64,000 nucleotides of DNA from Deltaproteobacteria bacterium (GTDB lineage Bacteria > Myxococcota_C > UBA6777): assembly GCA_002731275.1 (NCBI GenBank), contig PCBK01000078.1:1-64000 (forward strand), written 5' to 3'. The notes below the pieces were generated by a model. The model worked only from the letters and a program-made list of their open reading frames with translations, was not told the origin of the DNA and did not search any database. Positions 47,515-63,153 of this stretch are shown here, piece after piece (position 1 is the stretch's first letter; every line of letters starts with the position of its first letter). Both the position numbers and the translations under genes were made by a program.

Positions 47515-48303
47515 ATGCACTCGAAGCGTTTGAAACATCTTCTCTGCTGGATCGGATGTGGTTGTCTGTTGTTCTGTGGTTCTGTTACTTTTGCACAAGG
47601 CAAAAAGGACACGTCTTCAAAAAGCTCCGCAGACAAAAAGACCCCGACGACCACAAGCAAAAGTGCGACAAAGACAGAGAAAAAACCTTCTGCGCCTGTG
47701 AAACCAGCCACCCAAACTCCATCTGGAGCGACCCACAAAACTGCCATCACGGACAAACACCGCTTTAAACTGGTGCGCATTGAAGAAGAGACCAACTCCC
47801 TCAAAGAAAAAATCTTTCGCAGCAAAGCACAGCTGATGCTGTTGCAAGAATCCCTTCTCAACGGCGCGATCTCCACAGCTAAGTTGATCTTGAGCTTTGA
47901 TAACCGTATGGGGAGCGCCTTCTACCTCAAAGAGGTCACCTTCTCGCTCAACGGGACCCCTCTTTACACAAAGATCGATTACAACGGCAGCCTCAACAAC
48001 AAACGCAAGTTTGTCATTTACCAGGGCAGCGTCCAACCCAAACAACACACACTCTCCATCGTCCTCAACTACCAAGGTAATGGCTTTGGAGCCTTCTCCT
48101 ACCTCAACAAATACAAATTCAAGATCCAATCGTCTTACACGTTCAAAGCGGAAGAACGTAAGCAGGTCGAGATCAAAATTGTCGGATACGAAAAGAATTG
48201 GCTGACGACTCCTCTTAGAGAACGTCCAACAGTCCGCTACGATGTGAAGATTCGCAAACTTTCAAGTCGCCCCAAAAAGCTGAAAATTGGCGGCAAAAAG
48301 TAA
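47515..48303 (+). CDS. Secreted protein, first gene of the envelope-machine run
   Basis: The ATG at 47515 has AAGGAG 6 bases upstream and gives a signal peptide with a Cys-rich core (LLCWIGCGCLLFCGSVTFAQ). A Lys/Ser/Thr/Pro-rich linker of about 55 residues follows, then a region with a helical motif (RIEEETNSLKEKIFRSKAQL) and a beta-sandwich-like part (residues about 120-262) with strands such as AFYLKEVTFSLNGTPLYTKI and HTLSIVLNYQGNGFGAF. I do not recognise a named family. It comes just before the large TPR genes of a Glt/Nfs-like cluster, so a periplasmic accessory role is inferred. The frame is open to 47386. Confidence 0.7.
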   Translation: MHSKRLKHLLCWIGCGCLLFCGSVTFAQGKKDTSSKSSADKKTPTTTSKSATKTEKKPSAPVKPATQTPSGATHKTAITDKHRFKLVRIEEETNSLKEKIFRSKAQLMLLQESLLNGAISTAKLILSFDNRMGSAFYLKEVTFSLNGTPLYTKIDYNGSLNNKRKFVIYQGSVQPKQHTLSIVLNYQGNGFGAFSYLNKYKFKIQSSYTFKAEERKQVEIKIVGYEKNWLTTPLRERPTVRYDVKIRKLSSRPKKLKIGGKK

Positions 48304-48369
48304 CATCACAACGTATCATCTTTTCCCGCAATTCATAAAACGCGAAGCCCGAACCTAAAGGCGAACAGG

Positions 48370-50766
48370 ATGAATCTGAACAAGCAGACGACATTTCGCA
48401 AACAACCAAGCTTCCCCTGGGCCCGTGGCCTTTTGATGACCGGTGTGCTACTGCTCACGCTCGGTCATGTCTCCCCCCAGGCACAAGCCCAAGATCTTCA
48501 AAAGCTCCAGGAACAAGTCACACGCATGGAACGACAAATGCGTGTATTCTTGTCGAGCTACCGAAACATCAATCTGAAGCGCAGCAACGTAAGCCTCCGC
48601 AAGCGACTCGCAGACGGGCAGCTCAACTTTTTGCTCAAAGACTACGTCCGGGCGAGCATTATCCTGTTTGATGCGGTAGAAAATAACCCTGGCAACAGAG
48701 GCATCGCCTGGTATGAAGCCCTCTTCTACCTCGCAGAATCTCTTTACCACAACCGCAACTACATCTCGGCCTCAACGCACTACCAAACACTCGTCAAGCA
48801 CAAAAAACGGCACTACGACAAAGCCCTCGTGCGTTTGATGGAGATCGCCGAAAAAACCAATCGCTACCAATGGCTCAACAACTACTTTAACCAGGGCGCC
48901 AGCCTCCCTCCTGGACCGCTGCGCAACAAGATCATCTACCTGCGTGCGAAGGGTCTCCATAGACAAAAAAAGTTTGCACTGTCCCAAGCAGAGTTCCAAA
49001 AAATCCCCCAAGGCAGAGAATGGCCTCGTGCGCAGTACTTCCTCGCGGTTATCAAGCTCCAAACACTCAACAAAAAACAGAGCATCCCCATCGCGATTAA
49101 ATACCTTGAAGCCGCAGCAAACGCTCTCAACACGAGCAGCTTTAAACAACCCAAGCTGCAAGACATCGTCCACATCTCGCTAGGACGGCTCTATCTGGAG
49201 AGCAAAAAGCCAAAGAAAGCGCTCAACTTCTACCAAAAAATCGGTCGAAAATCACACGTCTTTGACCAAGCTCTTTACGAGATTTGTTGGACTTACATCC
49301 GACGCGCCAAAAAAAGAAAAAAACACTCCGAGATCCAAACGGAGTACAAACGTGCGCTTCGTTCTCTCGACCTGTTGCTCGCATTTTTGAAAGAGAGCAC
49401 CTTCTACCCCAAAGCCCAACTCCTGCGCAGTCACCTGTTGTTGCAATTGAGTAAGTACGACTCCGCGATGGGCAATTACCAAAAAATCGTCAAGCGATAC
49501 TCTGGCCTGAGTAAAGAACTCGATAACGTCAACAAGAGTTGGGCGAGTCCGATCAAATTCTTTGAGAAGCTGATCGAGGAAAAACTCGACAAGTTCAGTG
49601 TCGCGTCAGTCTTGCCCAAAGATGCGGTGAAATGGATGAGTTCAGAAGAGACGATGAAGCGCACACTCGTGATGCTCCGTGATCTTCGAGAGATGAGCAA
49701 GTATCTCGTCGACTCCCAAGTCATCATCCAGAAGCTCCAAAGTGCGCTACAAGTGCAGGACAGGATCGCGCTGACCCCGACGCTCAAAGAGGGTCGTGTG
49801 CGCGCACTCGGCATGAGAAGCCAGCTCATCTCCATTCAGGAGAAGCTCAACTCCAAAGAACGCTCCATCCTGTTTCCAAAGGCGACCGCGAGTCAACGAC
49901 AACAGTACAAAAACATCCAAGAGCGCTTGAAGACGCTTCAAACACTGTTCCAACAAACACCACAAAACAGACAAGAGATCCTCAGACGGGCCAAAAGCAC
50001 CGAGACACGTATCATCAATATGCAAGCAAGGCTCCACAAGCTGACATTGCAATTTGACTACAACACCCGCTTTGTCACAGCAGCCCGCAATTGGCTGGCG
50101 ACCAACCCCGAGGCCCAAAAGCTGACGCCCACACAGCGAAACAGTATCTCGTCTCAGATCTCCGAGGTCACACGTAAAAACAACGAACTGGAACGTAAAC
50201 AACAACAGCTCAAACGCACACTAGAGCTCGCACAAGTCCAGTTCGGTAATGTCCCAGTTGGTGCGCAAGACGAGCGCATTCAGACCAAATACAGACGCCT
50301 GCTCAACCGGGAACGCCAAGTCCTCAGCCAGATGAGCAGCAACCTGTCCGCGGATGAACAGCAGACTGTCACCTCGATCCGCAGTCAAACCAATCGTGTC
50401 CGCTCCCTTCAGAAACAGCTCCGTGGCTTTTTTACACTGCTTCGTCGACTGATCTCCCAATACAGCGTGCGTATGCAGAAAAAAGTCCGTGAAGAGAAAC
50501 TCAAAGTCAACCGCTACGAACAACAAGTCAGCGGCCTACGAAACCGTGCCAAACGCCTCGCCTCACGCATCGCATACAACGCCTTTTTGTCCGCACGCAG
50601 CAAGATCAAGAGCCTTGTTTTACGTGCAGATGTCGGTGTAATCGATGTTGTATGGCAGGAGAAACAGACCACGCAGTCCAAGATCAGAAAGCTCTCCAAA
50701 GAGCGAAACAGCGAGCTGCGTGTGCTTGACTCCGAATTCAAGGATATTTTGCAAGAAGTAAAATAA
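48370..50766 (+). CDS. Periplasmic TPR/coiled-coil protein, GltC-like by position
   Basis: A signal peptide (about 1-40, ending QAQAQ) leads to about 300 residues of TPR-type helical pairs (LLKDYVRASIILFDAVENN, ASTHYQTLVKHKKRHYDKAL and KPKKALNFYQKIGRKS) and then, from about residue 420, a very long coiled coil (RQQYKNIQERLKTLQTLFQQ, RNNELERKQ-type segments). It lacks membrane helices. A TPR-plus-coiled-coil protein beside TolQR-type genes fits the Glt/Nfs periplasmic subunits, such as GltC; identity is inferred from content and position. A ribosome site (AAAGGCG) precedes the ATG. Confidence 0.75.
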   Translation: MNLNKQTTFRKQPSFPWARGLLMTGVLLLTLGHVSPQAQAQDLQKLQEQVTRMERQMRVFLSSYRNINLKRSNVSLRKRLADGQLNFLLKDYVRASIILFDAVENNPGNRGIAWYEALFYLAESLYHNRNYISASTHYQTLVKHKKRHYDKALVRLMEIAEKTNRYQWLNNYFNQGASLPPGPLRNKIIYLRAKGLHRQKKFALSQAEFQKIPQGREWPRAQYFLAVIKLQTLNKKQSIPIAIKYLEAAANALNTSSFKQPKLQDIVHISLGRLYLESKKPKKALNFYQKIGRKSHVFDQALYEICWTYIRRAKKRKKHSEIQTEYKRALRSLDLLLAFLKESTFYPKAQLLRSHLLLQLSKYDSAMGNYQKIVKRYSGLSKELDNVNKSWASPIKFFEKLIEEKLDKFSVASVLPKDAVKWMSSEETMKRTLVMLRDLREMSKYLVDSQVIIQKLQSALQVQDRIALTPTLKEGRVRALGMRSQLISIQEKLNSKERSILFPKATASQRQQYKNIQERLKTLQTLFQQTPQNRQEILRRAKSTETRIINMQARLHKLTLQFDYNTRFVTAARNWLATNPEAQKLTPTQRNSISSQISEVTRKNNELERKQQQLKRTLELAQVQFGNVPVGAQDERIQTKYRRLLNRERQVLSQMSSNLSADEQQTVTSIRSQTNRVRSLQKQLRGFFTLLRRLISQYSVRMQKKVREEKLKVNRYEQQVSGLRNRAKRLASRIAYNAFLSARSKIKSLVLRADVGVIDVVWQEKQTTQSKIRKLSKERNSELRVLDSEFKDILQEVK

Positions 50767-50895
50767 ATCATGATCTCGAACAGAAACACGATGTGGAACC
50801 ATTTACCGCAAGACACGACTCATCAACAGGTAAATGCATGCAATCCCACCACCAGAGATACAAAAGCAACCTTCCACACCGTAGGGAGAATAAAG

Positions 50896-53800
50896 ATGAA
50901 TTGGCTCATTTCACGCAAGATACACTGGGCGTTGGCGACGCTCTTGCTGGCCTCCCCTTCGTGGGCAGAAAATCAAAAAAAGTCATCCAATGACGCTTCA
51001 CTCAACTCGACGACGACGGCTTCAGCGACAAAGCCCATCGATCGCGACTTGGAACCCCTCACGGAAAAACAACGGCTTGCCGAGCTCAAAAAGCTCAATA
51101 AAGACAATAAAATATTCAAAAAAGCGGCCCTTGAGTACCTCCGAGAAGTCCGCTCGTTGATTCGCAAGCAATATCGCGAACGACGTAAGTTGATCGTAGG
51201 TGGCTACGAAACAAAAATACAAAAGCTCGAACGAAAAGAAGAACTTGCGCGAAAGAAAGCGATTCAATACTTTATCGCGTTTATCAACAAGTACCCCTCT
51301 CACCCGCGCTTTACTCCCGATGCGATGTACCGACTCGCCGAGCTGTACTACGAAGAAGAATACAACCAGTACCTCGCGCGCTCTCGACAATATGAGAAAG
51401 ATCTCCAACGCTACGACAACAAAGAGATCCCAGACGCACCGATCACACCAAAGAAAACATTCCCTCGCACCATCTCGCGCCTGGGAATCCTCGTCAACCA
51501 ATTTCCAAACTACCGCTTCGCCGCGGGTGCACATTACTTGCTCGGTTACTGTAAAGGAGAAGAAGATCGCGAAAAAGAAGCGATCGCGCACTTCAAGATC
51601 ATCACCGAGCGATACCCCAAAAGCCCCATCATCGCAGAAGCATGGATTCGACTTGGTGAATTCTACTTCCGCTCCAATAAACGCGCGGAAGCCAAGCGCT
51701 CCTACATGCAGGTCCTCAAGTATCCAAAACACCCGATGTTTGACAAAGCACTGTACAAGCTCGCGTGGACCCACTATCTGCTCGACGAGTTTGACAGCGC
51801 AGTAAGCCGATTTGTCGAGCTGCTCGAATTCTACCGAAAAAAAGGCAAAAAAGGTGGTGGCGAGTTGCGCAAAGAGGCGATCCAGTACATCGCGATCAGC
51901 TTCGCCGATGAAAAGTGGGGGAGCCCCGAAAAAGCCTACAAATTTGTCCAAAAACTGGGACTTAAACGACCATACAGCCGCGACATCCTCCTGCAACTCG
52001 CGAAGAACTACAAGACCCAACAAAACTGGGACATGGTGATCGCGGTGAACAAGCGTTTATTGCAGCTTTACCCCTACCATCCCCAAAACCCCATCGTCCA
52101 AGCACAAATCATCCGCGCAAATGAGCAGAAGCGAGACCTCAAAAACGCGCTGCTCGAACGTGACGCGTTGCTCTCCAAGTTCGGCCCTGAATCAGATTGG
52201 CACAAAAAGAACGAGAAGAACCTGCGCGCGATCAAAGAGGTCGACAAGATCCTGAGCAAGAACATCTACCGCACAGCGATCTTCCGCCACGAGAGTTGCA
52301 ATATCTTCCGAAAAAATGCGGACAAGGCCAAAGACGAAGCGGAGCGCCAAACCCTGCTCAATGGAGCGTTAAAGAACTGCGCGCTCGCAGCCAAAAACTA
52401 CCGCGAATTTCTGAAGCGATTCCCCCACCACAAAGAGGCGTACAACCTCACATGGTACCTTGCAGACAGCCTCTACTTTGGAAAGCAATACAAAGACGCG
52501 ACCACGTACTTCAAAAAGGTACGCGACTGGCCAGGTGAGAAGAAGTACTTCGACGAAGCAGCCTTCTCTCTCGTCGACTCTTACGTCCAACAGGTCGGTC
52601 TCGAATGTAAGTCGGGACAAATCAAGAGAGCCTGTGAAGGTGTCGATGAGCCCAAGAAAAAAGACGAGGGGAAAAAGAAGGACGAAGGGAAGAAAAAGAA
52701 AGACGCGAAAAAATCTGAAGATGGCGGTTTTCGGAAGCGAAAGATCACACCTTTGCCCATCCCAGAACTGCAAAAAGAGCTGTTGGGAGCGCGCGAATTC
52801 TTCCTCGATAAAGCCGCAAAAAAGAACGACAAGCGGATCCCTGGACAGCTCTACTTGATCGCGCGGATCTACTATGCATACGACCACATCGAAAAAGCAC
52901 GCAACAGGCTTTGGGACTTCATCAAGAAGTACCCCAAACACACCTTGATGCAAGAAGCAGGTGATACGATCGTCGCGTCTTACAGACGAGAGGGTCGCCT
53001 TCGTCAGATGCTCAAGTCGATCACCAAATTGCGTCGCCTCTCAGGTGGCACGTTTAAAGCAGCCTACGAGAAAAAACTTCGTGTCGGTGTCGCATACATC
53101 GAAGCCAAACAGCTTCAGAAGCAAGGAAAGTGGGTCAAGGCCGCGAGAGCTTACGAAAAAGCGGTCGCGAAAAACCCAAAACACAAAGACGCCCCTGCCG
53201 CGCTGTGGAACGCAGCGTTGATGTTTGAAAAAGCGAACTTGTACGCCTCTGCTCTCCGCCTATACGAAAAGATTGTCCGTGATTACCCAAGATGGAACAT
53301 GGCCGATCAAGCGCTCTTCTTTGTCGCGTACAACGCTGAAAAGTACTTCAACTTTGAAAAAGCCATCCAGGAGTACACAAAGCTCGCGACGGATAGGAAC
53401 TTCCGCAAATCGAAAAAACGTCCAGACGCCCTGTACAATGCGGCATTGCTTCTGGAAAACATGCAGCGATATGGGCAAGCGGCGCGTGCCTATAGCCGAT
53501 ACGCAAAAGAATTCCCCAAACGACCAGACAGTCCAGAGATGCTCTACCGCGTTGCGCTGATGTACAAAAAAATGAAACGAGATGACGCGACGATTCGTGC
53601 ACTCGAAAAATACATCCGTCGCTACAAAAACGACAGCAAACAAGTGCGACGTGTCATGATGTCCTATGGTGAGATCATGGACATGTACGAAAAGCAGGGG
53701 AAAAACGAACGCTTTATGACACGCCAGTACGAGCGCGTGATCAAGGCGTTTGAGAACCTCCAACCCAGCATGAAACCTGTCGACATCGCGTTGACCCGAA

Positions 53801-54435
53801 AATATCCAGCGAAGGCCGCCTTCCGTATCGGCATGAAAACGCACAAGAAGTTTATCGAGTTTGAGATCAAAACGACCAAGCCAAAGCGTCAAAAGAAACA
53901 GCTTGAGAAGAAGATCAAAGGCTACAAAGACGTAGAGACTGCCCTTGGCGAGATCGCCAAGTACAAGTCCCCTCCTTGGTTGTTGTGTGCGATGTACCGC
54001 ATCGCGGAAGCCAAACAAAACATTGTCAAGGTCATCCAAAAAATGCCTTTGCCGAAGATCAGAGGCTTCAGATGGACAGACGAAGCCAAAGACATCTACA
54101 AAGAAAAGCTCGACCAGAGCTATGTCATCCCACTCGAAGACCAAGCCAAGAAGCTGTACCTCAAGACTGTCGCTCGCTCACAGAAGCTGCACTTTGAGAA
54201 CAACTGCACGAACAAAGCGTATGAAGCACTTCACCGCATGGATCCCAACATTCCATTGCCGAAAAAGACATACGAACAAAAGAACTTCGAGCCCTTGTCT
54301 CCGATGCCATTGGTCAAGAGTATTCGCAAGAAGAAGAAGAAAGTCAAAGGCACAGGGGACAAGCTCAAATCAGCTCCCAAACCTCGAAAAGCCCCAGCCA
54401 AAAGGCCAGCAGCGCCAGCAGCGCCGGCAAAATAA
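50896..54435 (+). CDS. Large periplasmic TPR protein, GltD/AgmU-like
   Basis: The ATG at 50896 has GGGAG 9 bases upstream and gives a signal peptide (MNWLISRKIHWALATLLLAS ending SWA). The mature protein of about 1155 residues is nearly all TPR repeats (FINKYPSHPRFTPDAMYRLA, HFKIITERYPKSPIIAEAW and KNPKHKDAPAALWNAALMF), interrupted by a charged Lys/Glu insert (DEGKKKDEGKKKKDAKK at about 595) and a Pro/Ala-rich end. GltD/AgmU of Myxococcus is a periplasmic TPR protein of about the same length that decorates gliding complexes. The frame is open to 50770. The gene is followed by the TPR lipoprotein gene after 63 bases. Confidence 0.82.
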   Translation: MNWLISRKIHWALATLLLASPSWAENQKKSSNDASLNSTTTASATKPIDRDLEPLTEKQRLAELKKLNKDNKIFKKAALEYLREVRSLIRKQYRERRKLIVGGYETKIQKLERKEELARKKAIQYFIAFINKYPSHPRFTPDAMYRLAELYYEEEYNQYLARSRQYEKDLQRYDNKEIPDAPITPKKTFPRTISRLGILVNQFPNYRFAAGAHYLLGYCKGEEDREKEAIAHFKIITERYPKSPIIAEAWIRLGEFYFRSNKRAEAKRSYMQVLKYPKHPMFDKALYKLAWTHYLLDEFDSAVSRFVELLEFYRKKGKKGGGELRKEAIQYIAISFADEKWGSPEKAYKFVQKLGLKRPYSRDILLQLAKNYKTQQNWDMVIAVNKRLLQLYPYHPQNPIVQAQIIRANEQKRDLKNALLERDALLSKFGPESDWHKKNEKNLRAIKEVDKILSKNIYRTAIFRHESCNIFRKNADKAKDEAERQTLLNGALKNCALAAKNYREFLKRFPHHKEAYNLTWYLADSLYFGKQYKDATTYFKKVRDWPGEKKYFDEAAFSLVDSYVQQVGLECKSGQIKRACEGVDEPKKKDEGKKKDEGKKKKDAKKSEDGGFRKRKITPLPIPELQKELLGAREFFLDKAAKKNDKRIPGQLYLIARIYYAYDHIEKARNRLWDFIKKYPKHTLMQEAGDTIVASYRREGRLRQMLKSITKLRRLSGGTFKAAYEKKLRVGVAYIEAKQLQKQGKWVKAARAYEKAVAKNPKHKDAPAALWNAALMFEKANLYASALRLYEKIVRDYPRWNMADQALFFVAYNAEKYFNFEKAIQEYTKLATDRNFRKSKKRPDALYNAALLLENMQRYGQAARAYSRYAKEFPKRPDSPEMLYRVALMYKKMKRDDATIRALEKYIRRYKNDSKQVRRVMMSYGEIMDMYEKQGKNERFMTRQYERVIKAFENLQPSMKPVDIALTRKYPAKAAFRIGMKTHKKFIEFEIKTTKPKRQKKQLEKKIKGYKDVETALGEIAKYKSPPWLLCAMYRIAEAKQNIVKVIQKMPLPKIRGFRWTDEAKDIYKEKLDQSYVIPLEDQAKKLYLKTVARSQKLHFENNCTNKAYEALHRMDPNIPLPKKTYEQKNFEPLSPMPLVKSIRKKKKKVKGTGDKLKSAPKPRKAPAKRPAAPAAPAK

Positions 54436-54442
54436 GAGGCGT

Positions 54443-54469
54443 CAGCGAGTTGATCTTCTCGACTCGCTG
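54443..54469 (+). other. Stem-loop between the two TPR genes
   Basis: An 11-bp stem (54443-54453 with 54459-54469, one G-U pair) with a 5-base loop, 8 bases after the GltD-like stop. No T-run follows, so it is better read as an mRNA-processing or stabilising hairpin than a terminator. Confidence 0.5.
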
Positions 54470-54498
54470 GTGACTTCTGAAGCGAAGAAGGAAACGCA

Positions 54499-55935
54499 AT
54501 GAAACACATCACTTCACCAATCAGCTTTGGGCTTCTCGTGCTGGGAACACTCTTTTGTTTCGCTGGCTGTCCAAACAATAGTGTGCTGAAGCAAAACTCC
54601 GGTAGTGACTCGACGGAGAAGGTGTCTTCCTCGGTGGCTGATGCGTCAGCAGGGACGAGTGCTGCAACACCACCAGAGAAGAAGGTCGTCGTGGAAGCTT
54701 CGGCACCTCCACCTCGCCCACGTCCCGTTGCCACAGGAGGCTCTGTAGAGGAGCAGTTTGAACAGGCAGTGAAGCTCGCGAGCACACAACCTGCTGACGC
54801 GATCAAGCTCTTGCAGGAAGTCTTGAGCAAACAACCTCGCTCACACCAAGCATGGTACAACATTGGCGTGCTTTACGATCGTATGGGGAACATGCCATCA
54901 GCTGAAAATGGCTACAACAAAGCGCTTGAGATCAAGCCCAACTACTTTCCTGCGGTGATCAACCTCACACGACTGTACCGTCGCCAAAAGCGAGATGGTC
55001 AGGCGACGTTGTTGTTACAGCGCAAAGCGAGTCAATTTCCAAAGGAGCTTCGGTACAGAAACGCTCTCATCCATACGTATATCCGAAAGGGTCAGCTTGC
55101 ACAGGCTGAGCAAATGGCGCGCGCCATCCAAAAGAAAGATGAGAAGAACGCCGAAGCGATCATCAACCTTGGGCTTGTTTGGTACAAGCAAGCCAAGTAC
55201 GAACTTGCGAGGACGGCTTTCAACATCGCGAGTGAGACCAACACAAAGCTCGCCACGCCACACTATTACCTTGGACAAACCTACACAAAACTGAAAGATC
55301 AGGTCGCAGCGATAGACAGTCTCAAAAAAGCGCTCACGATCCAGGACGCTTACCCAGAAGCCCACAACTTGCTCGGTGTTTTGCTGATGAAGCAAGGAAA
55401 GGTGAAAGAAGCTCGTGGCCACTTTGAGAAGGCCGTGAAGTTTATGCCTCGCTATTGGGAAGCACGTCTCAACCTAGGGAATGCGCTCGCAGCGCTTCAA
55501 AATTACAAAGAAGCTTCGGCGATTTACCAGAAGCTCATCCAGAGCTTTCCGTACAAAACGTTGGCACACTACCACTTGGGCATTTTGTACTTAGACAAGA
55601 AGGTGAAACCTCAAGGGACACGCGGGACCTCCGGCTATGTGATCCCTGCAGCGATCCAGGGGTCAAAGCGGATCTTGAAGAGGTTGGACTTGATCGCGCA
55701 ATACAACGCAGCAGCCACGTATATCGGAGCGTATGTCAACCGCGCGAGTCTTCCTGCTGATGCACCTGCGAGATCTTACCTCGAAGATGCCGTCAAAAAG
55801 CGGGACAAAGAGAAAAAGCGCCTTCAGCGCACGATCAAAAGGGAGCTCAAACGCTATCTCCGAAAAGCAAACAAGCGTACAGCCCCAAGACCAGCACCAC
55901 GCCCAGCTCCAGCAGCGAAACCAGCGACACGATGA
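54499..55935 (+). CDS. TPR lipoprotein, GltE/AglT-like
   Basis: A lipoprotein signal ends in FAGC (Cys24), followed by a Ser/Thr/Pro/Ala linker to about 75. Residues about 75-420 are TPR repeats (AWYNIGVLYDRMGNMPSAEN, NGYNKALEIKPNYFPAVINL, HYYLGQTYTKLKDQVAAIDS and ARGHFEKAVKFMPRYWEARL), and the C-terminus is basic, Ala/Pro-rich. A TPR lipoprotein of this size directly after a GltD-like gene matches GltE (AglT) in Myxococcus. It is probably anchored to the outer membrane. AAGGAAA precedes the ATG. A 410-base gap follows. Confidence 0.82.
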   Translation: MKHITSPISFGLLVLGTLFCFAGCPNNSVLKQNSGSDSTEKVSSSVADASAGTSAATPPEKKVVVEASAPPPRPRPVATGGSVEEQFEQAVKLASTQPADAIKLLQEVLSKQPRSHQAWYNIGVLYDRMGNMPSAENGYNKALEIKPNYFPAVINLTRLYRRQKRDGQATLLLQRKASQFPKELRYRNALIHTYIRKGQLAQAEQMARAIQKKDEKNAEAIINLGLVWYKQAKYELARTAFNIASETNTKLATPHYYLGQTYTKLKDQVAAIDSLKKALTIQDAYPEAHNLLGVLLMKQGKVKEARGHFEKAVKFMPRYWEARLNLGNALAALQNYKEASAIYQKLIQSFPYKTLAHYHLGILYLDKKVKPQGTRGTSGYVIPAAIQGSKRILKRLDLIAQYNAAATYIGAYVNRASLPADAPARSYLEDAVKKRDKEKKRLQRTIKRELKRYLRKANKRTAPRPAPRPAPAAKPATR

Positions 55936-56120
55936 CAAAGTTGATGATGAAGATGCAGGGCACCGGGATATACACCAAAAATCTTCTTCATAAGACAGGT
56001 ACGAAAAAGACGACCACCAGTGCAGCACAACAGCCCGATATAAACGGGTTTAGATGTCTTTTCGTGCCAAGCGTTGCGCCTTCCGGGAAAAAAGCACGAG
56101 ATAGCGCCTTGACTTCCTAC

Positions 56121-56177
56121 GAATCCGTATGGTACAAATCCTCCCCAGAACATAGGGGAGAAGACCATCCCGGATTC
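56121..56177 (+). other. Nested stem-loop in the 410-base gap after the TPR lipoprotein
   Basis: The gap 55936-56345 has no convincing gene. In it, three nested arm pairs can fold: 56121-56127 with 56171-56177, 56129-56133 with 56164-56168, and 56141-56146 with 56155-56160, closed by an 8-base loop. ATTTGATTTG follows. A TTGACT (56109) and TACAAA (56133) pair, spacing 18, overlaps it and could be a promoter for the small gene downstream. Either a terminator or a leader structure is possible. Confidence 0.4.
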
Positions 56178-56345
56178 ATTTGATTTGTGCTTGTAACTCT
56201 TTGGCGTCTATGCACAGACAAAGAGCCATTCTTTGCAAAAATGAAGGGCGAAAATGTGCTAGAAACCATACAGCTCAATGAATGCGCAGCCTTCCCAAAG
56301 CATTCACAACAAGGACGAAAGTCCACAGAAAGGAGTGACTGCATA

Positions 56346-56600
56346 ATGAACCGCACCTTTTGCTTGTTCAGCCTATTTTTTGGATGGTTGATGATCGCTG
56401 GCTTGATGTTTCCTCACGAAGCAAGTGCTCAAAAGCGCGGGACAGTGATTCGACTGAGCGACTTTAAGATCGTAGGTCGGATTCAAAAGCCCCAAGCTTT
56501 TTATGTGCTTCACCGTGCTCCATTGAATTACAAGAGTTTGAATTTCAAGGAGAGCTTTGTGAAGAAAGTTATCAACGAAGTGAAGAAATCCCCGTTCTAG
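56346..56600 (+). CDS. Small exported protein, possibly GltF-like
   Basis: 84 residues. The ATG at 56346 has AAAGGAG 10 bases upstream and gives a clean signal peptide (MNRTFCLFSLFFGWLMIAGL... ending ASA). The mature part of about 55 residues (GTVIRLSDFKIVGRIQKPQA, then LNFKESFVKKVINEV) has no cysteine or membrane segment. It lies between the GltE-like and TolQ-like genes, where Myxococcus has a small periplasmic gene; I infer a GltF-type position but not sequence homology. The frame is open to 56187. Confidence 0.75.
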   Translation: MNRTFCLFSLFFGWLMIAGLMFPHEASAQKRGTVIRLSDFKIVGRIQKPQAFYVLHRAPLNYKSLNFKESFVKKVINEVKKSPF

Positions 56601-56623
56601 ACGAGTCAATGCAGAGCAGCCGT

Positions 56624-56643
56624 AAGGCAAGGATGCCTTGTTT
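56624..56643 (+). terminator. Weak terminator-like hairpin before the TolQ-like gene
   Basis: A 6-bp stem (56624-56629 with 56634-56639, loop AGGA), extendable by G-U pairs, followed by GTTTT. It sits 23 bases after the small gene and may partly stop or attenuate transcription. Confidence 0.4.
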
Positions 56644-56788
56644 TCGTCGTTCCCTACGAGAGTAGGAAAACTTGTACACAACATTCGGAATATGAAGCAT
56701 CTTCCTTTTGTCAAAATAAGTCGAAAAGTCACAAAGGAAGAAAATCACCCCACTGCCACTTCAGCCCCACTGAGGAGGAAAGAACACA

Positions 56789-57439
56789 ATGTCAGGAATT
56801 TACGACTTTTATTTCCAGGGTGGAGCATTTATGCACCCCATTGCCATCTGCTTGATCTTTGGTATCGGTTTGATGGTCGAGCGCTTCATCTTCTTGTTTT
56901 TCCGATACAACATCAACGGCGCAGCGTTTATGGCTCAGATCCAGAAATTGGTGATGGCAAACAACATCGACCGCGCTATCAAGCTTTGTAACGCAGCACC
57001 CAGCGCAGCACTTCCCAAGGTCGTGAAGGCTGGCTTGACTCGCGCCAACAAAGGTGAGATGGAGATCGCAAACGCAATCGAAGAAGCGACCCTCGAAGTC
57101 ATTCCCAAAGTTCAGAAACGCACAAACTTGCTTCAAGCTGTAGCCAACGTCGCGACGATGCTTGGACTGCTCGGTACAATCTTTGGTCTGATCGAAGCGT
57201 TTAAGGCTCTCGACTCCGCGACCGCTGACCAAAAATCGAAACTTCTCGCGAAGTACATCTCGATCGCTTTGAACACAACAGCATTTGGTCTCGTCGCAGC
57301 GATTCCCTGCCTCGTCGCTCACGCCATCCTGAGTAGCATCACCAAAAAGATCATCGACGAGATCGATGAGTACACAGTGAAGTTGCAAAACCTCTTGTTC
57401 AGCCGTGCAAAAGGTTCCGCAAACCCACTCGACCGATAA
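56789..57439 (+). CDS. MotA/TolQ/ExbB proton-channel subunit, AglR-like
   Basis: 216 residues with three membrane helices: about 14-38 (HPIAICLIFGIGLMVERFIF), 112-137 (ANVATMLGLLGTIFGLIEAF, the canonical proton-channel signature) and 152-180 (ISIALNTTAFGLVAAIPCLV). The cytoplasmic loop between TM1 and TM2 holds NAIEEATLEVIPKVQKR. It should form the pentameric stator that powers work in the periplasm, as AglR does in Myxococcus gliding. The ribosome site is AGGAGGAAA. The two TolR/ExbD-type genes follow. Confidence 0.93.
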   Translation: MSGIYDFYFQGGAFMHPIAICLIFGIGLMVERFIFLFFRYNINGAAFMAQIQKLVMANNIDRAIKLCNAAPSAALPKVVKAGLTRANKGEMEIANAIEEATLEVIPKVQKRTNLLQAVANVATMLGLLGTIFGLIEAFKALDSATADQKSKLLAKYISIALNTTAFGLVAAIPCLVAHAILSSITKKIIDEIDEYTVKLQNLLFSRAKGSANPLDR

Positions 57440-57464
57440 TATTCGAGTTCTTCGTGTGGAGCAT

Positions 57465-57499
57465 CAATACGCAGGGTCCGTGAGGATTCTGCGTATTTT
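57465..57499 (+). terminator. Strong hairpin with U-run between TolQ-like and first TolR-like gene
   Basis: AATACGCAG at 57465-57473 pairs with 57488-57496; GGTCC pairs with GGATT inside (two G-U), leaving a GTGA (GNRA) loop, so the stem is 14 bp. T-rich sequence follows (TTTG, then TTTTTTT at about 57508). It lies 25 bases after the stop. It could lower expression of the downstream subunits relative to the channel. Confidence 0.6.
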
Positions 57500-57542
57500 T
57501 GTGGCATCTTTTTTTGCGACCCACACAGCGTGAGGATACAAA

Positions 57543-58097
57543 ATGCCAAAAATTCGTATACCAGAAGATCCCGAACCAATTAACATCATGCCTTTGATGA
57601 ACATCATCATGCTCTTGATCCCCTTCTTGATCATGAGTACTGAGTTTATCAAGCTGTCGGTCATCAACGTCACTGCCCCCAAAATTGGGTCGGCATCTTC
57701 TTCTCAGAGCAAGCCCAAAGAGAAGAAAGACAAACCCCCCCTGAACCTTACCGTCTCCGTGACAGACAAAGGAATGACTTTGATCACACGTGGAGACAAG
57801 ATTCCTGAGGGTTGTGCTCTTGCCCAGCTCAAGCAGCCAGGCGAGAAACGTCTCCCCACAATTCGAAAAGTTGGGAAAAACCACGACTTCCCCAAGTTGA
57901 CCAGCTGCCTCGACAAGATCAAAAAGTTGTTTTCGGATGAAAAACGTCTGATCATCATGGCAGAGCCCGAGATCAAATTTAAAGTGATCGTCGGTATCAT
58001 GGACTCTAGCCGGGAAAGTAAGAAGTATCCCAAGGATGACAAAGAAGGCAAAGAAGGCCTGTTCCCCGAGGTGATCTTGAGTGCGGGTGTACTCTAA
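57543..58097 (+). CDS. ExbD/TolR-family protein, first of two (channel Asp replaced)
   Basis: 184 residues with one membrane helix (about 15-33). In ExbD/TolR, a PLVDVMLVLLI-type stretch carries the proton-binding Asp; here the same position reads PLMNIIMLLIPFL, with Asn20 in place of Asp. The periplasmic part (about 40-184) is a TolR-like domain (DKGMTLITRGDKIP, FKVIVGIMDSS). It should form a heteromeric complex with the second ExbD-type protein, which keeps the Asp. In Myxococcus AglQ and AglS are the corresponding pair. Confidence 0.88.
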   Translation: MPKIRIPEDPEPINIMPLMNIIMLLIPFLIMSTEFIKLSVINVTAPKIGSASSSQSKPKEKKDKPPLNLTVSVTDKGMTLITRGDKIPEGCALAQLKQPGEKRLPTIRKVGKNHDFPKLTSCLDKIKKLFSDEKRLIIMAEPEIKFKVIVGIMDSSRESKKYPKDDKEGKEGLFPEVILSAGVL

Positions 58098-58134
58098 CCC
58101 ATCCGCCTCCACCCCGTAAGACAGACCTGTCTCC

Positions 58135-58204
58135 GTTCCCTCAACACAGAACACACTGATATTTCGATTGATTTTTTGTTCAAAAAAAAGAGGGAACCTT
58201 TTTT
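58135..58204 (+). terminator. Composite hairpin with U-run between the two TolR-like genes
   Basis: GTTCCCTC (58135-58142) pairs with GAGGGAAC (58190-58197); inside, a T6 and A6 pair (58172-58177 with 58182-58187) with a GTTC loop. CTTTTTT follows directly. It may be a terminator or attenuator; the large loop makes it weaker than the two neighbouring hairpins. Confidence 0.4.
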
Positions 58205-58282
58205 GTCCTCCTCTGACTAATCAAGTGGGAAGGCGTCGCAGGAGCAAAATCCAATGCGACTCATGAAGGAGCGTCTAGAGAA

Positions 58283-58846
58283 ATGGATCAAGATCAAGCG
58301 CTTGTAGACAAGAAAAAATTTAAAAAGGCCTATAAGAAAGCTGTGCGTTCGGCAGAGCTTGAAAAAAAGGCCGAATTGCAAATGAACTCGTTGATGGACA
58401 TCTTTGTCAACGTTCTCATTTATCTTCTGATGAACTATTCAACTTCACCAGTTGACGTATCGCAGACAGAAGAACGCCGACTTCCCGAGTCTTACTCGAA
58501 GCTTCAGCTCAAGCACACCACCACACTGGGTGTGACCACAAAAGCGATCCTCGTGAATCGTAAAAAAGTGTGTCCCCTCCAAGATGGTCGCGTTGATCCC
58601 GCTTTGAAGAAAGACAAACAAGCTCAATCCTATTTGATCGTGCCGCTGCTCGAAAAATTGAAAGAAGCAGCCACCAAGCGAAAGAAGATCGCCAAGTTTA
58701 ACAAAGCGATCCAATTCAAAGGAATTGTCACGATCGTTGCAGATGAGCGCATGCCCTTCCGACTCCTGTCCGAGATCATGTACACAGCTGGTCAGGCAGA
58801 GTTCGGGAAATTTAAATTTGCAGTCGTTCGAAAAGCTGCCAAATAA
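58283..58846 (+). CDS. ExbD/TolR-family protein, second of two (channel Asp present)
   Basis: 187 residues. After a charged cytoplasmic stretch of 33 residues, the single membrane helix (MNSLMDIFVNVLIYLLMNYS) carries Asp39, at the conserved proton-binding position. The periplasmic part has FKGIVTIVADERMPF and a TolR-like end (LLSEIMYTAGQAEFGKFKFAV). It is therefore the member likely to carry protons in this motor. AAGGAG lies about 12 bases before the ATG. It is comparable with AglQ/AglS in Myxococcus. Confidence 0.88.
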   Translation: MDQDQALVDKKKFKKAYKKAVRSAELEKKAELQMNSLMDIFVNVLIYLLMNYSTSPVDVSQTEERRLPESYSKLQLKHTTTLGVTTKAILVNRKKVCPLQDGRVDPALKKDKQAQSYLIVPLLEKLKEAATKRKKIAKFNKAIQFKGIVTIVADERMPFRLLSEIMYTAGQAEFGKFKFAVVRKAAK

Positions 58847-58871
58847 ATTTCGAAAAGGGTCGTATAAGAAG

Positions 58872-58900
58872 AAAAGCGACAAGAACGTCGCTTTTTCTTC
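58872..58900 (+). terminator. Strong hairpin with U-run between second TolR-like gene and GltG-like gene
   Basis: AAAAGCGAC (58872-58880) pairs with GTCGCTTTT (58887-58895), loop AAGAAC, extendable through the flanking GAAG and CTTC with one bulged T. A run of five T is part of the 3' arm. It lies 26 bases after the stop and fits an intrinsic terminator. Confidence 0.6.
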
Positions 58901-59032
58901 CCAAATCGAAAGTCCAACTGGAGCTGCAAAGCAGATGTTTGGTTGGCGAGGAAAAAGAGTCCGCACGTTACGTGCAATTTCTCCATTATTTGGAATGAGA
59001 CATCCAACTCACAGGTGGAAGAGGATCTCATC

Positions 59033-60475
59033 ATGACACAAAAAGAAACCAGAAAGATCCTCAGGATTGGGATCATTCAAGGTGGAAAAATTGTCGAAGA
59101 GCGCCTTCTGAGAAAGCGCGAACCCGTTACTGTTGGTGAATCGGCAAAAAACACATTTGTCATTCCTTCGACAGGTTTGCCTTCTCGTTTCCCTCTTTTC
59201 GAACTGAAGGGGGACAAGTACTATTTGACAATCGCTGACTGGATGCAAGGACGTCTGTCCTTGGGGACCGGTGTTGCTGACTTGAACGGACTCAAGAAGC
59301 AAGGTGTCGCCAAAAAAGTCGGCCAGGTGGATTATAAAGATCCCAAAGGCGGAAACGCAGCCAAAAAGAAAGTGCCTGTGTTTCAAGTTCCGTTGAGCGA
59401 AAAATCTCGCGGCAAAATGACTTTCGGTGACACCACATTGCTCTTCCAATTTGTCACCCCACCTCCCCTCCCAGCCAAACCACAGCTTCCTATCCTCGTG
59501 ACCGGAGGATGGCTCAAAGGTGTAGATTGGATATTCTCCACCATCCTACTCGTCTCCTTCTTGCTTCACGTTGGCGTCATCTTTATGTGCCAAAAGATAG
59601 GTCCTCTTCCCAAAGTCACATTGGATCAAATTCCAGAACGCTTTGCGAAGTACATCCAACCTATCCAGCCAGTCAAACGTCCTCCACCAGTTCGTCGAGA
59701 GACTGACAACGGCAAAAAAAGCGACAAAGGCAAAAAAAGCGCCAAACGCAAAGCCCCCAAGAAGAGAGCAACCAAGGCTCGCAAGGCTCCTCCCAAACGG
59801 CGCATCAGCGCCGAAGAGTCAGCCCGACGCGCACAAGCTCGAAAAAATCGCATCCGCAAACAACTCTCTCGAGTCGGTATTATCGCACTCATCGGTGCAA
59901 AAGGGACCGGCAGCGGCTCCTCTGTCCAAGACGTGATCTCTGGAAACAGCATCGACGGACGACTTGACCGCGCTCTCGAAGGCGTAAAAGGACTTGCAGT
60001 CGCAGGCTCCGGAGCCAACAGGGGAACCCGACGCGGTGGCGGTGGACGTGGCTCACTCAGCATCAAAGAATCCCTACAAGGCGGTCCTCGTGGTGGTGGC
60101 GGTGGCGGCGGAAAAACACGTGTTCGCCGAAAAAGAGCGCGCATCAAATCCGCTCTCAAAATCGAATCCATCGAGCCTGAAGGCGGTACCATTAACCAGG
60201 GTTCACTCGGACGACTCCTGCGCCGTAAACGTGGACTCTTCCAGTACTGCTACGAAAAAGAGTTGAAACGCAGCCCCAACCTCCGCGGAAAAATTGCACT
60301 GCGTGTGCAAATCGCTCTCAACGGGCGCGTCTCAAACATCGAAATCGAAGAAAACAACCTCGGCTCCAACGTCGCTCGTTGTATTTCCTCAAGAGTTCGA
60401 AGAATTCGCTTCCCAAGACCAAAAGGGGAAGCGGTCAGTATTGTCATCCCACTGCTCTTCTCCCCATCAAGCTAA
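59033..60475 (+). CDS. AgmX/PglI C-terminal-domain protein, GltG-like
   Basis: 480 residues, TonB-like in layout. The N-terminal 140 residues are beta-rich and FHA-like (LRIGIIQGGKIVEERLLRKR, VTVGESAKNTFVIPSTGLPS and YYLTIADWMQG), on the cytoplasmic side. One membrane helix (about 163-186) is followed by a basic, Pro/Lys/Arg- and Gly-rich spacer, and the C-terminal 95 residues form the AgmX/PglI domain with Cys406 and Cys450 likely bonded (LFQYCYEKELKRSPNLRGKI). This is the build of GltG (PglI) in the gliding complex, which could transmit motor force through the periplasm. The ATG at 59033 has GAGG 9 bases upstream. Confidence 0.9.
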   Translation: MTQKETRKILRIGIIQGGKIVEERLLRKREPVTVGESAKNTFVIPSTGLPSRFPLFELKGDKYYLTIADWMQGRLSLGTGVADLNGLKKQGVAKKVGQVDYKDPKGGNAAKKKVPVFQVPLSEKSRGKMTFGDTTLLFQFVTPPPLPAKPQLPILVTGGWLKGVDWIFSTILLVSFLLHVGVIFMCQKIGPLPKVTLDQIPERFAKYIQPIQPVKRPPPVRRETDNGKKSDKGKKSAKRKAPKKRATKARKAPPKRRISAEESARRAQARKNRIRKQLSRVGIIALIGAKGTGSGSSVQDVISGNSIDGRLDRALEGVKGLAVAGSGANRGTRRGGGGRGSLSIKESLQGGPRGGGGGGGKTRVRRKRARIKSALKIESIEPEGGTINQGSLGRLLRRKRGLFQYCYEKELKRSPNLRGKIALRVQIALNGRVSNIEIEENNLGSNVARCISSRVRRIRFPRPKGEAVSIVIPLLFSPSS

Positions 60476-60657
60476 CCCCAAGACCCTCCCCTTTCTCCTT
60501 TCTTTTTCCTCCATTTTGTGGTACATATACAACCTCACTCGCACAACAAGCACACCCACTTTTTTGGGACGAAACAATTTTTTTTTATTTCCAAATGTGA
60601 CTTGTGCTCTCTTGCGCCGTATAGTAAAAGAAGGTTCTTTGTTTCTTGTTGAAATCC

Positions 60658-60679
60658 ATGTGACATCATATGATCACAT
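60658..60679. promoter_or_regulatory. Candidate operator 1 upstream of the OM barrel gene
   Basis: A near-perfect 22-base inverted repeat (ATGTGA outer arms and TCACAT, inner ATCATATGAT) with one extra base on the left. It resembles a dimeric regulator site but does not fit the CRP spacing of six. Confidence 0.35.
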
Positions 60680-60777
60680 TCTCATAGAATCTTCGGTAAA
60701 CACGCGATCTGACATCACATTGAAAGGACGATCGCAAAGAAGTTTCCGATCTGTTGGAAGCTTCATAGATTTTTTAC

Positions 60778-60791
60778 GTCTCATATGAGAC
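60778..60791. promoter_or_regulatory. Candidate operator 2 upstream of the OM barrel gene
   Basis: A perfect 14-base palindrome, GTCTCATATGAGAC, whose CATATG centre is shared with the site 114 bases upstream. It ends 135 bases before the GTG start of the barrel gene. Confidence 0.35.
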
Positions 60792-60926
60792 AAATACCCA
60801 AGTCATTGGGTTAAAGTACACATGGAAGTTACTTCGTTAATTGCATATTCAAATCCACTTTCCAAACGCTGAGCCTGTGCCCGCCGGGATAGAAATTGTT
60901 GCAAAGTGGAAGCACTGGAGTCTGTT

Positions 60927-62297
60927 GTGAAAACAAAGAAGGCAATCAACCAGCGAATCCCCCTATGCTTTCTCCTCATAATGACGCTCATCCCGGGATG
61001 GGTTCATGCCCGTGGAGATGGTGTTAGAGTCGGACAGTCGGGTTCTTTTCACCCCCGTCTGTATCTAGATACTGGCTACGATAACAACGTGTTCAACCGC
61101 TCTTCGCAAAACCCAGCGACTCTCCTCCCCGTTGACACCGCGTACCTCAACGTGAGACCTGGTCTCCAACTCGAAATTCCATCACACCCGATTGGTTTCG
61201 AGCTGAGTGGATACGCCAACTACAGCCTCTTCTTCAACAGTACAGCTGCCAACCTCAACACCATCACTGCGAAAGCAGACCTTACGGTCACTCTCTTCCG
61301 TAACTCCCCCGTCTCTTTCAGCCTGACCAACAACTTCAGTCGTAGCTCTGGAGACGAAAACACCGCCAACGATGTCTTCGAACGCGTTGCCTTCTACCAC
61401 CAACTCGGTACGACATTCAGGCAGCCTTTCATCAGCCACGATAACAAGACCGCGGCACTCCTCACCATCCAACCAGGTGGTCGCGAAGGTCCTTTCAAAT
61501 TCGACATCGGATACACCTTCCGGTTTGCGATCAACCCCGACCCCGACACCGACAACAACAGACACAAACTCAGTCTCGGGACCAAGTGGGCATTCTTCCC
61601 CAAAACGGCGCTCCTCTTCGAAGCAAGTGGTGAGTTTGTCAACTTCAACCCACGCTTTGACTTCTCGCAAACAAGCACCGTCACAAGAAGCTCTGTTCCC
61701 GTCAAAGGTACTGTCGGTATTGTCGGTAACTTCACAGAGAACCTCTCTCTGACAGTCAGAGTAGGTGGTGGATACAACATCATCGACACCTCAGTCGCAT
61801 CAACACTCCCAGATGATACCTATGGTATGGCCATCGGATCTGCAATCCTCACATACTACTTTTCACCCACCATTTACTTTCGTATGGGTCTCTCCCACGA
61901 CTTCCACCCCTCTGCGTTCTCAAACTTCATGCACCAATCCGCCGGATTCTTGGAGTTTACAGCGCAAATCAACCGCTTCCTGATCGGACTTCGAGGGAGC
62001 GCGGCCTACATCGGATTCGGAAAAGTCAATCAAACAGTATCCCAACCAAACAATGGTGGCGTCACCACACGCTTTAACTCCAATAACATCAACGCTGACG
62101 GTACAATCAACAGAAACGACATTATCGTTCGCGGTAACGCAACTTTCGACTTCAACATCACGCAATGGTTCGTGATCGGTTTACGCGCCGGTGTTGATTG
62201 GCGCAACTCAGATCTCTTTGTGATCACAAGCGAAGGCCAAATCGGTCTGAGCTACCTGAACTTCAAAGCAGCTCTCAAACTAGAAGTTGCCTACTAA
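60927..62297 (+). CDS. Outer-membrane beta-barrel protein, probable polysaccharide-secretion porin
   Basis: I chose the GTG at 60927 (GGAG 7 bases upstream), giving a signal peptide (MKTKKAINQRIPLCFLLIMT... ending VHA); the frame extends to 60906. The mature protein of about 425 residues has a GYDNNVF motif near the start, typical of polysaccharide-cluster barrels, then many alternating strands (PISFSLTNNFS-like and SLTVRVGGGYNIIDTS), ending in AALKLEVAY with a terminal Tyr. It should be a large barrel of 16-18 strands. In Myxococcus such barrels (for example EpsX, WzpX) accompany short OPX proteins, as here. Confidence 0.8.
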   Translation: MKTKKAINQRIPLCFLLIMTLIPGWVHARGDGVRVGQSGSFHPRLYLDTGYDNNVFNRSSQNPATLLPVDTAYLNVRPGLQLEIPSHPIGFELSGYANYSLFFNSTAANLNTITAKADLTVTLFRNSPVSFSLTNNFSRSSGDENTANDVFERVAFYHQLGTTFRQPFISHDNKTAALLTIQPGGREGPFKFDIGYTFRFAINPDPDTDNNRHKLSLGTKWAFFPKTALLFEASGEFVNFNPRFDFSQTSTVTRSSVPVKGTVGIVGNFTENLSLTVRVGGGYNIIDTSVASTLPDDTYGMAIGSAILTYYFSPTIYFRMGLSHDFHPSAFSNFMHQSAGFLEFTAQINRFLIGLRGSAAYIGFGKVNQTVSQPNNGGVTTRFNSNNINADGTINRNDIIVRGNATFDFNITQWFVIGLRAGVDWRNSDLFVITSEGQIGLSYLNFKAALKLEVAY

Positions 62298-62517
62298 TCC
62301 CTCCTAACTCCTCCCCCACTCCCCACTTTTCCCTTTCCATTTTTAACAATCTGATTATTTTTGGTGTGATACTTTACACGACACACAGAATAAGCCTATA
62401 GAGAACCAAAAGTCTCGCTTTGATACAATCAAATGGCTTATCGAGACATCATCGTGTGTAAAAGGCCCAAAGCCCGAGAAGACACACCCAATAAGCCCAA
62501 ACGATCAGGTAGAAATT

Positions 62518-63153
62518 ATGAACCGTCTATTCATTGTGCTCTGTTGTTCGCTTCTTCTTTTGACAGGTTGTCTCACCACAACCACCCAAAACAAGCAAAG
62601 CGACTCACTGACGCTCTCACCGAAAAAGGAGCTCGTGGTCAGCAAAACACAAATGAACATGGCGTTCCAACTCGACGTTGGAGACGTGATCGCGGTCAAA
62701 GTCCACGGTGAGAACGAACTTGACAGCACCTACCAGATCTACCCCGAGTGCACCATCCAGTTCCCGATGATCCACACAGTCAAAGTGTGTGGACGTACGC
62801 CCGGTCAAATCCAACAGGAGATCGCGACAAGACTCCACAAAGACTACTTCAAGCAGCTACCTGCGGTGGTCGTGAAGGTCAAAGAGTTCAACTCCAAAAA
62901 GATCCACGTCTTTGGTCAAGTCGCAAAACCCGGTCGTTTTGATTATGTAAAAGGATTGACGCTGCTTCAGGCGATCGCAATGGCAGGTGGATTTACGCGA
63001 CGCGCAGCAAGGAATGATACGAGACTGATTCGAACAGTAGGCGGAAGCAAACGCATCTATCGGATCTCTTTGCGCTCGCTTGGGAAGCGTAGACTTCGCG
63101 ACCTTTATGTGAGACCCGGCGACATCATCTATATCCCCGAGAGCTGGATCTAA
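62518..63153 (+). CDS. OPX (Wza-type) polysaccharide export lipoprotein, short class
   Basis: The lipobox LLTGC ends at Cys18. Residues about 50-130 are the PES domain (FQLDVGDVIAVKVHGENELD and GRTPGQIQQEIATRL), followed by one SLBB-type unit (KIHVFGQVAKPGRFDYVKGL, TLLQAIAMAGGFTRRAARND). The protein stops at residue 211 with YVRPGDIIYIPESWI, so it lacks the amphipathic C-terminal helix by which Wza crosses the outer membrane. Such short OPX proteins rely on a separate barrel, and one is encoded just upstream. It should form the periplasmic export channel for an unknown polymer. Confidence 0.93.
   Translation: MNRLFIVLCCSLLLLTGCLTTTTQNKQSDSLTLSPKKELVVSKTQMNMAFQLDVGDVIAVKVHGENELDSTYQIYPECTIQFPMIHTVKVCGRTPGQIQQEIATRLHKDYFKQLPAVVVKVKEFNSKKIHVFGQVAKPGRFDYVKGLTLLQAIAMAGGFTRRAARNDTRLIRTVGGSKRIYRISLRSLGKRRLRDLYVRPGDIIYIPESWI

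Follow-up and report, generated by a model that had tools for sequence, protein, structure and literature searches.

Among the closest described relatives of the locus analyzed here are the Agl-Glt and Agl-Nfs machines of Myxococcus xanthus and, more broadly, the Agl-Glt/Nfs core complex (Group B). Luciano et al. (2011, PMC3169522) described gltC, D, E and G of this complex as sharing one region with aglR, Q and S in Geobacter, Gammaproteobacteria and Fibrobacter. On Myxococcus spores, Agl-Nfs moves the Exo polymer, which is exported by a Wza homologue (PMC3858216). M. xanthus also carries a scaffold set named G4, whose gltD homologue is MXAN_1922 (PMC3169522), and a motor named M2, encoded by MXAN_3003-3005 (Luciano et al., 2011). 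Both are listed as having no known function and their mutants keep normal motility (PMC3169522). The M2 mutant deleted for MXAN_3004 sporulates normally, and MXAN_3003 showed no binding to GltG or NfsG (PMC3858216). Composite OPX/beta-barrel translocons are defined by a short OPX protein (280 aa or less) and an 18-stranded barrel (PMC9601211), an architecture shared by EpsX/EpsY and WzpB/WzaB (PMC9601211; PMC9603273).

We analyzed a window of 64,000 nucleotides (contig PCBK01000078.1, assembly GCA_002731275.1) from a Deltaproteobacteria bacterium of the GTDB lineage Myxococcota_C, whose assembly comprises 200 contigs and is 94.65% complete with 5.5% contamination. Eleven genes, all in the same direction on the + strand, span positions 47515-63153 in the order P0001-GltC-GltD-GltE-GltF-AglR-AglQ-AglS-GltG-barrel (P0010)-OPX (P0011). 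A sequence-only reading had delimited eight to nine consecutive genes at 47515-60475, starting with P0001. All nine frames are open on the + strand and that segment is real, but the block is longer, reaching 63153 with the barrel and OPX genes, beyond an intergenic gap of ~430 bases between GltG and P0010. Consensus promoters are no commoner at the window than in shuffled sequence; terminator-like sites number 34 versus 23.6, and their placement is uninformative for the block. Upstream of it lies a gene for a dynamin-type GTPase of 831 aa (43111-45606) with a weak LeoA-like match.

The block opens with a secreted protein, P0001 (47515-48303, +), composed of a signal peptide, a disordered linker, a helix of ~40 residues and an Ig/transthyretin-like beta sandwich. 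Its AlphaFold model (mean pLDDT 81.6) has a generic fold, and a structure search returned many unrelated beta sandwiches at Z ~8, with no informative match. P0001 is the first block gene in Myxococcota, and its family is present in 37 related loci as well as in two Myxococcus loci (L264/L272). It is followed by a GltC-like exported TPR/coiled-coil protein (48370-50766, +; NF033756, 2.1e-8, under the equivalog cut-off), an orthologue of which is present in all related blocks, and by a GltD-like exported TPR protein (50770-54435, +) with TPR/YbgF matches, whose signal peptide suggests a true start near 50896. Next come a GltE-like TPR lipoprotein (54499-55935, +), which carries an LFCFAGC lipobox and matches NF033758 at 4e-21 among many TPR matches, and a GltF-like small exported protein of 84 aa (56346-56600, +) that is kept in related blocks. 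Because their equivalog matches fall below curated cut-offs, the names GltC, GltE and GltG are used here for homologues, not orthologues, of the gliding proteins.

The motor genes follow on the same strand. They encode an AglR-type ring subunit (56789-57439, +; PF01618, MotA/ExbB, 7e-27) and two ExbD subunits, one AglQ-type (57543-58097, +; PF02472, 4e-11), in which Asn20 (codon 57600-57602) replaces the proton-carrying Asp, and one AglS-type (58283-58846, +; PF02472, 1e-9), in which Asp39 (codon 58397-58399) is retained. Together, AglR, AglQ and AglS make up a motor set of Agl type that belongs to the M2 lineage. The GltG-type protein (59033-60475, +) matches NF033760 at 1.8e-37 and has an AgmX/PglI tail (6e-23), features that identify it by sequence as a TonB-like transducer. 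Its start is placed at ~59033, at M31 of the longer frame P0009, which is invariant in five genomes, as are S205 and H209 (P0009 numbering) of the S-x3-H motif in its membrane helix. This TonB-type motif also occurs in Myxococcus G4; a simple scan recovered it from only 27/70 GltG-type proteins, with Q or a different residue present in many of the remainder. Across the whole host genome, the AgmX/PglI C-terminal domain was matched 27 times, at many sites with no MotA/ExbB gene found nearby. The parts anticipated for the nine-gene segment, namely three TPR proteins, one MotA/ExbB protein, two ExbD proteins and one protein with a GltG/AgmX tail, were thus all recovered by profile searches.

The last two genes encode an outer-membrane beta barrel and an export lipoprotein. 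P0010 (60906-62297, +) shows 18 long strands in its AlphaFold model (mean pLDDT 82) and matches the alginate exporter AlgE at Z 20.2, level with OprD/Occ porins. P0011 (62518-63153, +) is a short OPX (Wza-type) lipoprotein of 211 aa (PF02563, 7e-16; SLBB, 3e-11; EpsY-type model, 2e-21) that terminates after the SLBB domain. An OPX protein of no more than 280 aa thus adjoins the gene for a barrel with 18 strands in its predicted model, the composite translocon architecture, and P0010 is a WzpB/EpsX-like partner of the OPX protein. Like EpsX/EpsY, ExoB/ExoA and WzpB/WzaB, the pair joins an 18-stranded barrel gene to a short OPX without a membrane-spanning end; unlike them, it is linked to a block with a proton-driven motor of Agl type and has no Wzx/Wzy nearby. 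Neither Wzx/Wzy nor polymerisation genes were seen near the block in the host genome, which carries a further OPX gene accompanied by Wzx/Wzy genes on contig C97 and a Wzc-type gene on C21.

We then placed the motor and the scaffold in phylogenies. In the AglR tree, Agl proteins split from E. coli TolQ and ExbB and from the host genome's own TolQ (100/99), and within the Agl proteins the Myxococcus gliding-type M1 motors fall on one side, with the window motor and Myxococcus M2 on the other (97/93, 100/98). The window GltD joins the Myxococcus G4 copy (99/99), apart from the Glt and Nfs GltD proteins. With gltC, D, E and G and aglR, Q and S in one region and a motor of the Agl lineage, it is nearly certain that the block belongs to the Agl-Glt/Nfs core complex (Group B), to which it adds a GltF-like gene, P0001 (both with Myxococcus homologues) and the 3' barrel/OPX pair. 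Its GltD, of the G4 clade, and its AglR, of the M2 clade, group it with the Myxococcus G4 transducer and M2 motor.

Other identities were rejected. Scores against TolQ/ExbB and TolR/ExbD equivalogs are far below cut-offs and the AglR tree disagrees with a Tol-Pal or ExbBD-TonB system. An Agl-Glt gliding machine is contradicted by the GltD tree and by the lack of any block protein with a best match to GltA/B/H/I/J/K. The Nfs machine is represented by an NfsD-lineage copy on contig C3, apart from the window GltD. A defence role found only weak matches. Profile searches and trees agree with the sequence-only proposal that a single block beside a polysaccharide exporter encodes an envelope motor related to Agl-Glt/Nfs. 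The proposal also survives its own test, as the motor groups with Agl rather than Tol/Exb and homology to GltC/D/E is confirmed for the TPR proteins. Its description of a complete-looking Agl-Glt/Nfs machine did not hold: the block shares with Agl-Glt and Agl-Nfs the GltC/D/E/F/G scaffold and the AglRQS-type motor, but GltA/B/H/I/J/K are missing, the Glt and Nfs orthologues are found on different contigs, and G4 and M2, whose GltD and AglR lineages are separate from theirs, are closer. Nor is the one-block layout unusual as had been thought, being already described by Luciano et al. (2011; PMC3169522).

The arrangement is conserved. The five genomes examined from the phylum all have it in identical order, one locus beginning inside GltC at a contig end, and AglR identity within this family is 87-88%. 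A scan of named genomes with an AglR alignment yielded 68 loci, mostly from Myxococcota, Bradymonadia-type genomes and 'Deltaproteobacteria' MAGs, most of which share the order; because it recurs in the four other phylum genomes and in ~50 further Myxococcota-type loci, it is not due to chance. Among the 45 related loci with enough downstream sequence to evaluate, a barrel follows GltG in 39 and an OPX gene in 29, with median gaps of 788 and 2163 bases, and OPX genes number just 1-5 per genome in the genomes tested. GltC/D/E/F thus form a conserved scaffold set that is genetically linked to a composite-translocon-type barrel and OPX. Some relatives have Wzc, a glycosyltransferase or a Wzy-type ligase downstream of the OPX gene. 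In many (L264:5889-6497 and most related blocks), the genes for GltG and the barrel also flank one for a small exported protein, to which no match was found in the window. We did not find a tie between such a block and a composite OPX/barrel translocon in the literature searched.

On balance, we lean towards reading the block as a trans-envelope machine, driven by protons, whose substrate at the outer membrane is exported polysaccharide. The machine could instead handle other cargo, such as an adhesin or outer-membrane material, with the exporter as a long-lived neighbor lacking a mechanical link. Varied cargoes are expected by Wartel et al., a related Vibrio plasmid cluster adjoins chaperone-usher and Ig-like genes, and the OPX gene was not recognised in 16/45 loci. 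These loci, which also count against the polysaccharide reading, include one deep clade in which ftsK rather than sugar genes comes after the barrel. However, the exporter pair stays with the Myxococcus block even after the motor has departed, and two genomes with a block devoid of this pair have barrel and OPX genes next to a separate aglRQS (L311, G196; L312, G009). We therefore regard such other cargo as unlikely.

We further compared the polysaccharide-handling candidate with its Myxococcus counterpart. The loci L264/L272, from two Myxococcus genomes, read mglB-mglA-P0001-GltC-D-E-F-GltG-barrel-OPX, with no motor in the block. Their barrel of 421 aa and their OPX protein of 204 aa, counted from the second Met, have the published lengths of WzpB (MXAN_1916) and WzaB (MXAN_1915), and MglA is MXAN_1925; locus tags for these loci were inferred from the mglBA neighbors, protein lengths and map order. 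With tags so inferred, Myxococcus G4 appears to lie between mglBA and a pair matching the BPS translocon WzpB/WzaB, and wzaB mutants show a BPS phenotype (PMC7310880). The adjacency of G4 and WzpB/WzaB is not mentioned in the text of the papers searched. In Myxococcus, a barrel HMM recognized the WzpB-like barrel only (218 bits), the EpsX and ExoB neighbors not being matched; the OPX HMM scored 206 (WzaB-like), 138 and 116 bits, and the tree backbone gives no support for WzaB joining the window OPX.

The window block therefore shares with M. xanthus G4 and M2 the same GltD and AglR clades and the order P0001-GltC-D-E-F-GltG-barrel-OPX. It differs in that its motor lies inside the block and its AglQ carries Asn, whereas the M. 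xanthus motor is at a separate locus and both its ExbD proteins keep the Asp. In addition, mglBA adjoins Myxococcus G4 but not the window block. Several lineages (L264:16832-17907, L078, L079, L098, L109, L110, L138, L139, L270, L274) have mglB-mglA immediately before P0001.

The host genome contains further copies of the scaffold. One GltD copy, on contig C178, joins the gliding GltD, and another, on C3, is sister to Myxococcus NfsD (96/90). The corresponding clusters are a motor-less Glt-type cluster (L058; G000:C178:138001-158000), which also encodes a GltC scoring close to the cut-off (396 bits), a barrel of GltA/B type and a MIDAS/CglD-like adhesin, and a motor-less Nfs-type cluster (L059; G000:C3:117501-137500). 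Because the GltD copies of the window, C178 and C3 fall in different clades, three sister systems coexist in this genome, the window block being of the G4 type. Apart from the block motor, no complete Agl motor was found in the five phylum genomes. A second AglR, ~69-74% identical, occurs in all five (G000:C49:33943-34578, L313; L075, L076, L082, L084); the scanned loci of the four relatives showed no AglQ or AglS gene next to it, and it might swap with the block AglR. As the only additional close AglR is this lone paralogue, the block motor may have other duties or also serve the Glt and Nfs copies.

These observations bear on whether the block belongs to a gliding machine, with the cell's sole Agl motor driving a Glt-type transducer from another contig, just as M. 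xanthus AglRQS serves both Glt and Nfs. In line with this, each of the five genomes has one block-type AglR and one lone paralogue but no M1-type AglR, the Glt- and Nfs-type clusters on C178 and C3 are motor-less, an MglA 83% identical is encoded on contig C23 of the host genome, and mglBA precedes the block in several relatives. The block nevertheless has its own GltC/D/E/F/G without GltA/B/H/I/J/K, and its GltD and AglR are of the G4 and M2 types, for which mutants have no motility defect in M. xanthus (PMC3169522). A gliding role would also leave the exporter linkage without explanation, and we consider it improbable; motor sharing is compatible with the polysaccharide reading. An Nfs-type spore-coat machine, for its part, has a similar parts list and an exported polymer as its substrate. 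Given that the host's Nfs-type GltD is the copy on C3, apart from the window GltD, and that sporulation is unaffected by the MXAN_3004 deletion (PMC3858216), this explanation is very improbable.

We also examined the ExbD position aligned with D25, which is Asn20 in the window AglQ-type and Asp39 in the AglS-type protein. After removal of duplicate genomes, block-embedded motors have exactly one Asp per pair in 56/56 cases (50 N/D, 3 S/D, 2 A/D and 1 D/A), whereas stand-alone Agl motors are D/D in 13/14 and N/D in one. The single D/A case represents a role reversal and supports a rule of one Asp per pair. Because only about three changes on the tree are needed, too few for significance, the association is not strong statistically. 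A plasmid search yielded solely a distant gammaproteobacterial cluster, an Agl-type cluster with an S/D pair on the Vibrio alginolyticus plasmid pMBL96 (L315), with chaperone-usher and Ig-like genes adjoining. The one-Asp pattern of block-embedded motors was not found in the literature searched. A more tentative proposal, plausible yet short of probable, is that these are asymmetric motors with one Asp per AglQ/AglS pair, obligate heterodimers whose cycle would be unlike that of the two-Asp gliding motor, dedicated to polysaccharide passing through or along the OPX/barrel translocon.

For the polysaccharide machine favored here, we infer a mechanism modelled on the way Agl-Nfs moves the Exo polymer, the experimental precedent. 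Protons would pass through AglR and a heterodimeric AglQ/AglS axle, with a protonatable Asp in AglS only, and thereby move GltG. GltG would in turn pull on GltC/D/E/F and P0001, and through these the force would reach the barrel/OPX pair, where the polymer would be gated, pulled or laid out. The predicted counterpart in Myxococcus is G4 with M2, acting on BPS export.

In M. xanthus, the D28N substitution in AglQ alone disables the motor (PMC3858216), whereas Asn is the natural state of AglQ here. Whether AglQ and AglS pair as hetero- or homodimers is still an open question (PMC9389320), on which the one-Asp pattern bears. The link to a secreted-polysaccharide exporter also offers a testable function for the G4 and M2 genes of M. 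xanthus, whose function has been listed as unknown since 2011.
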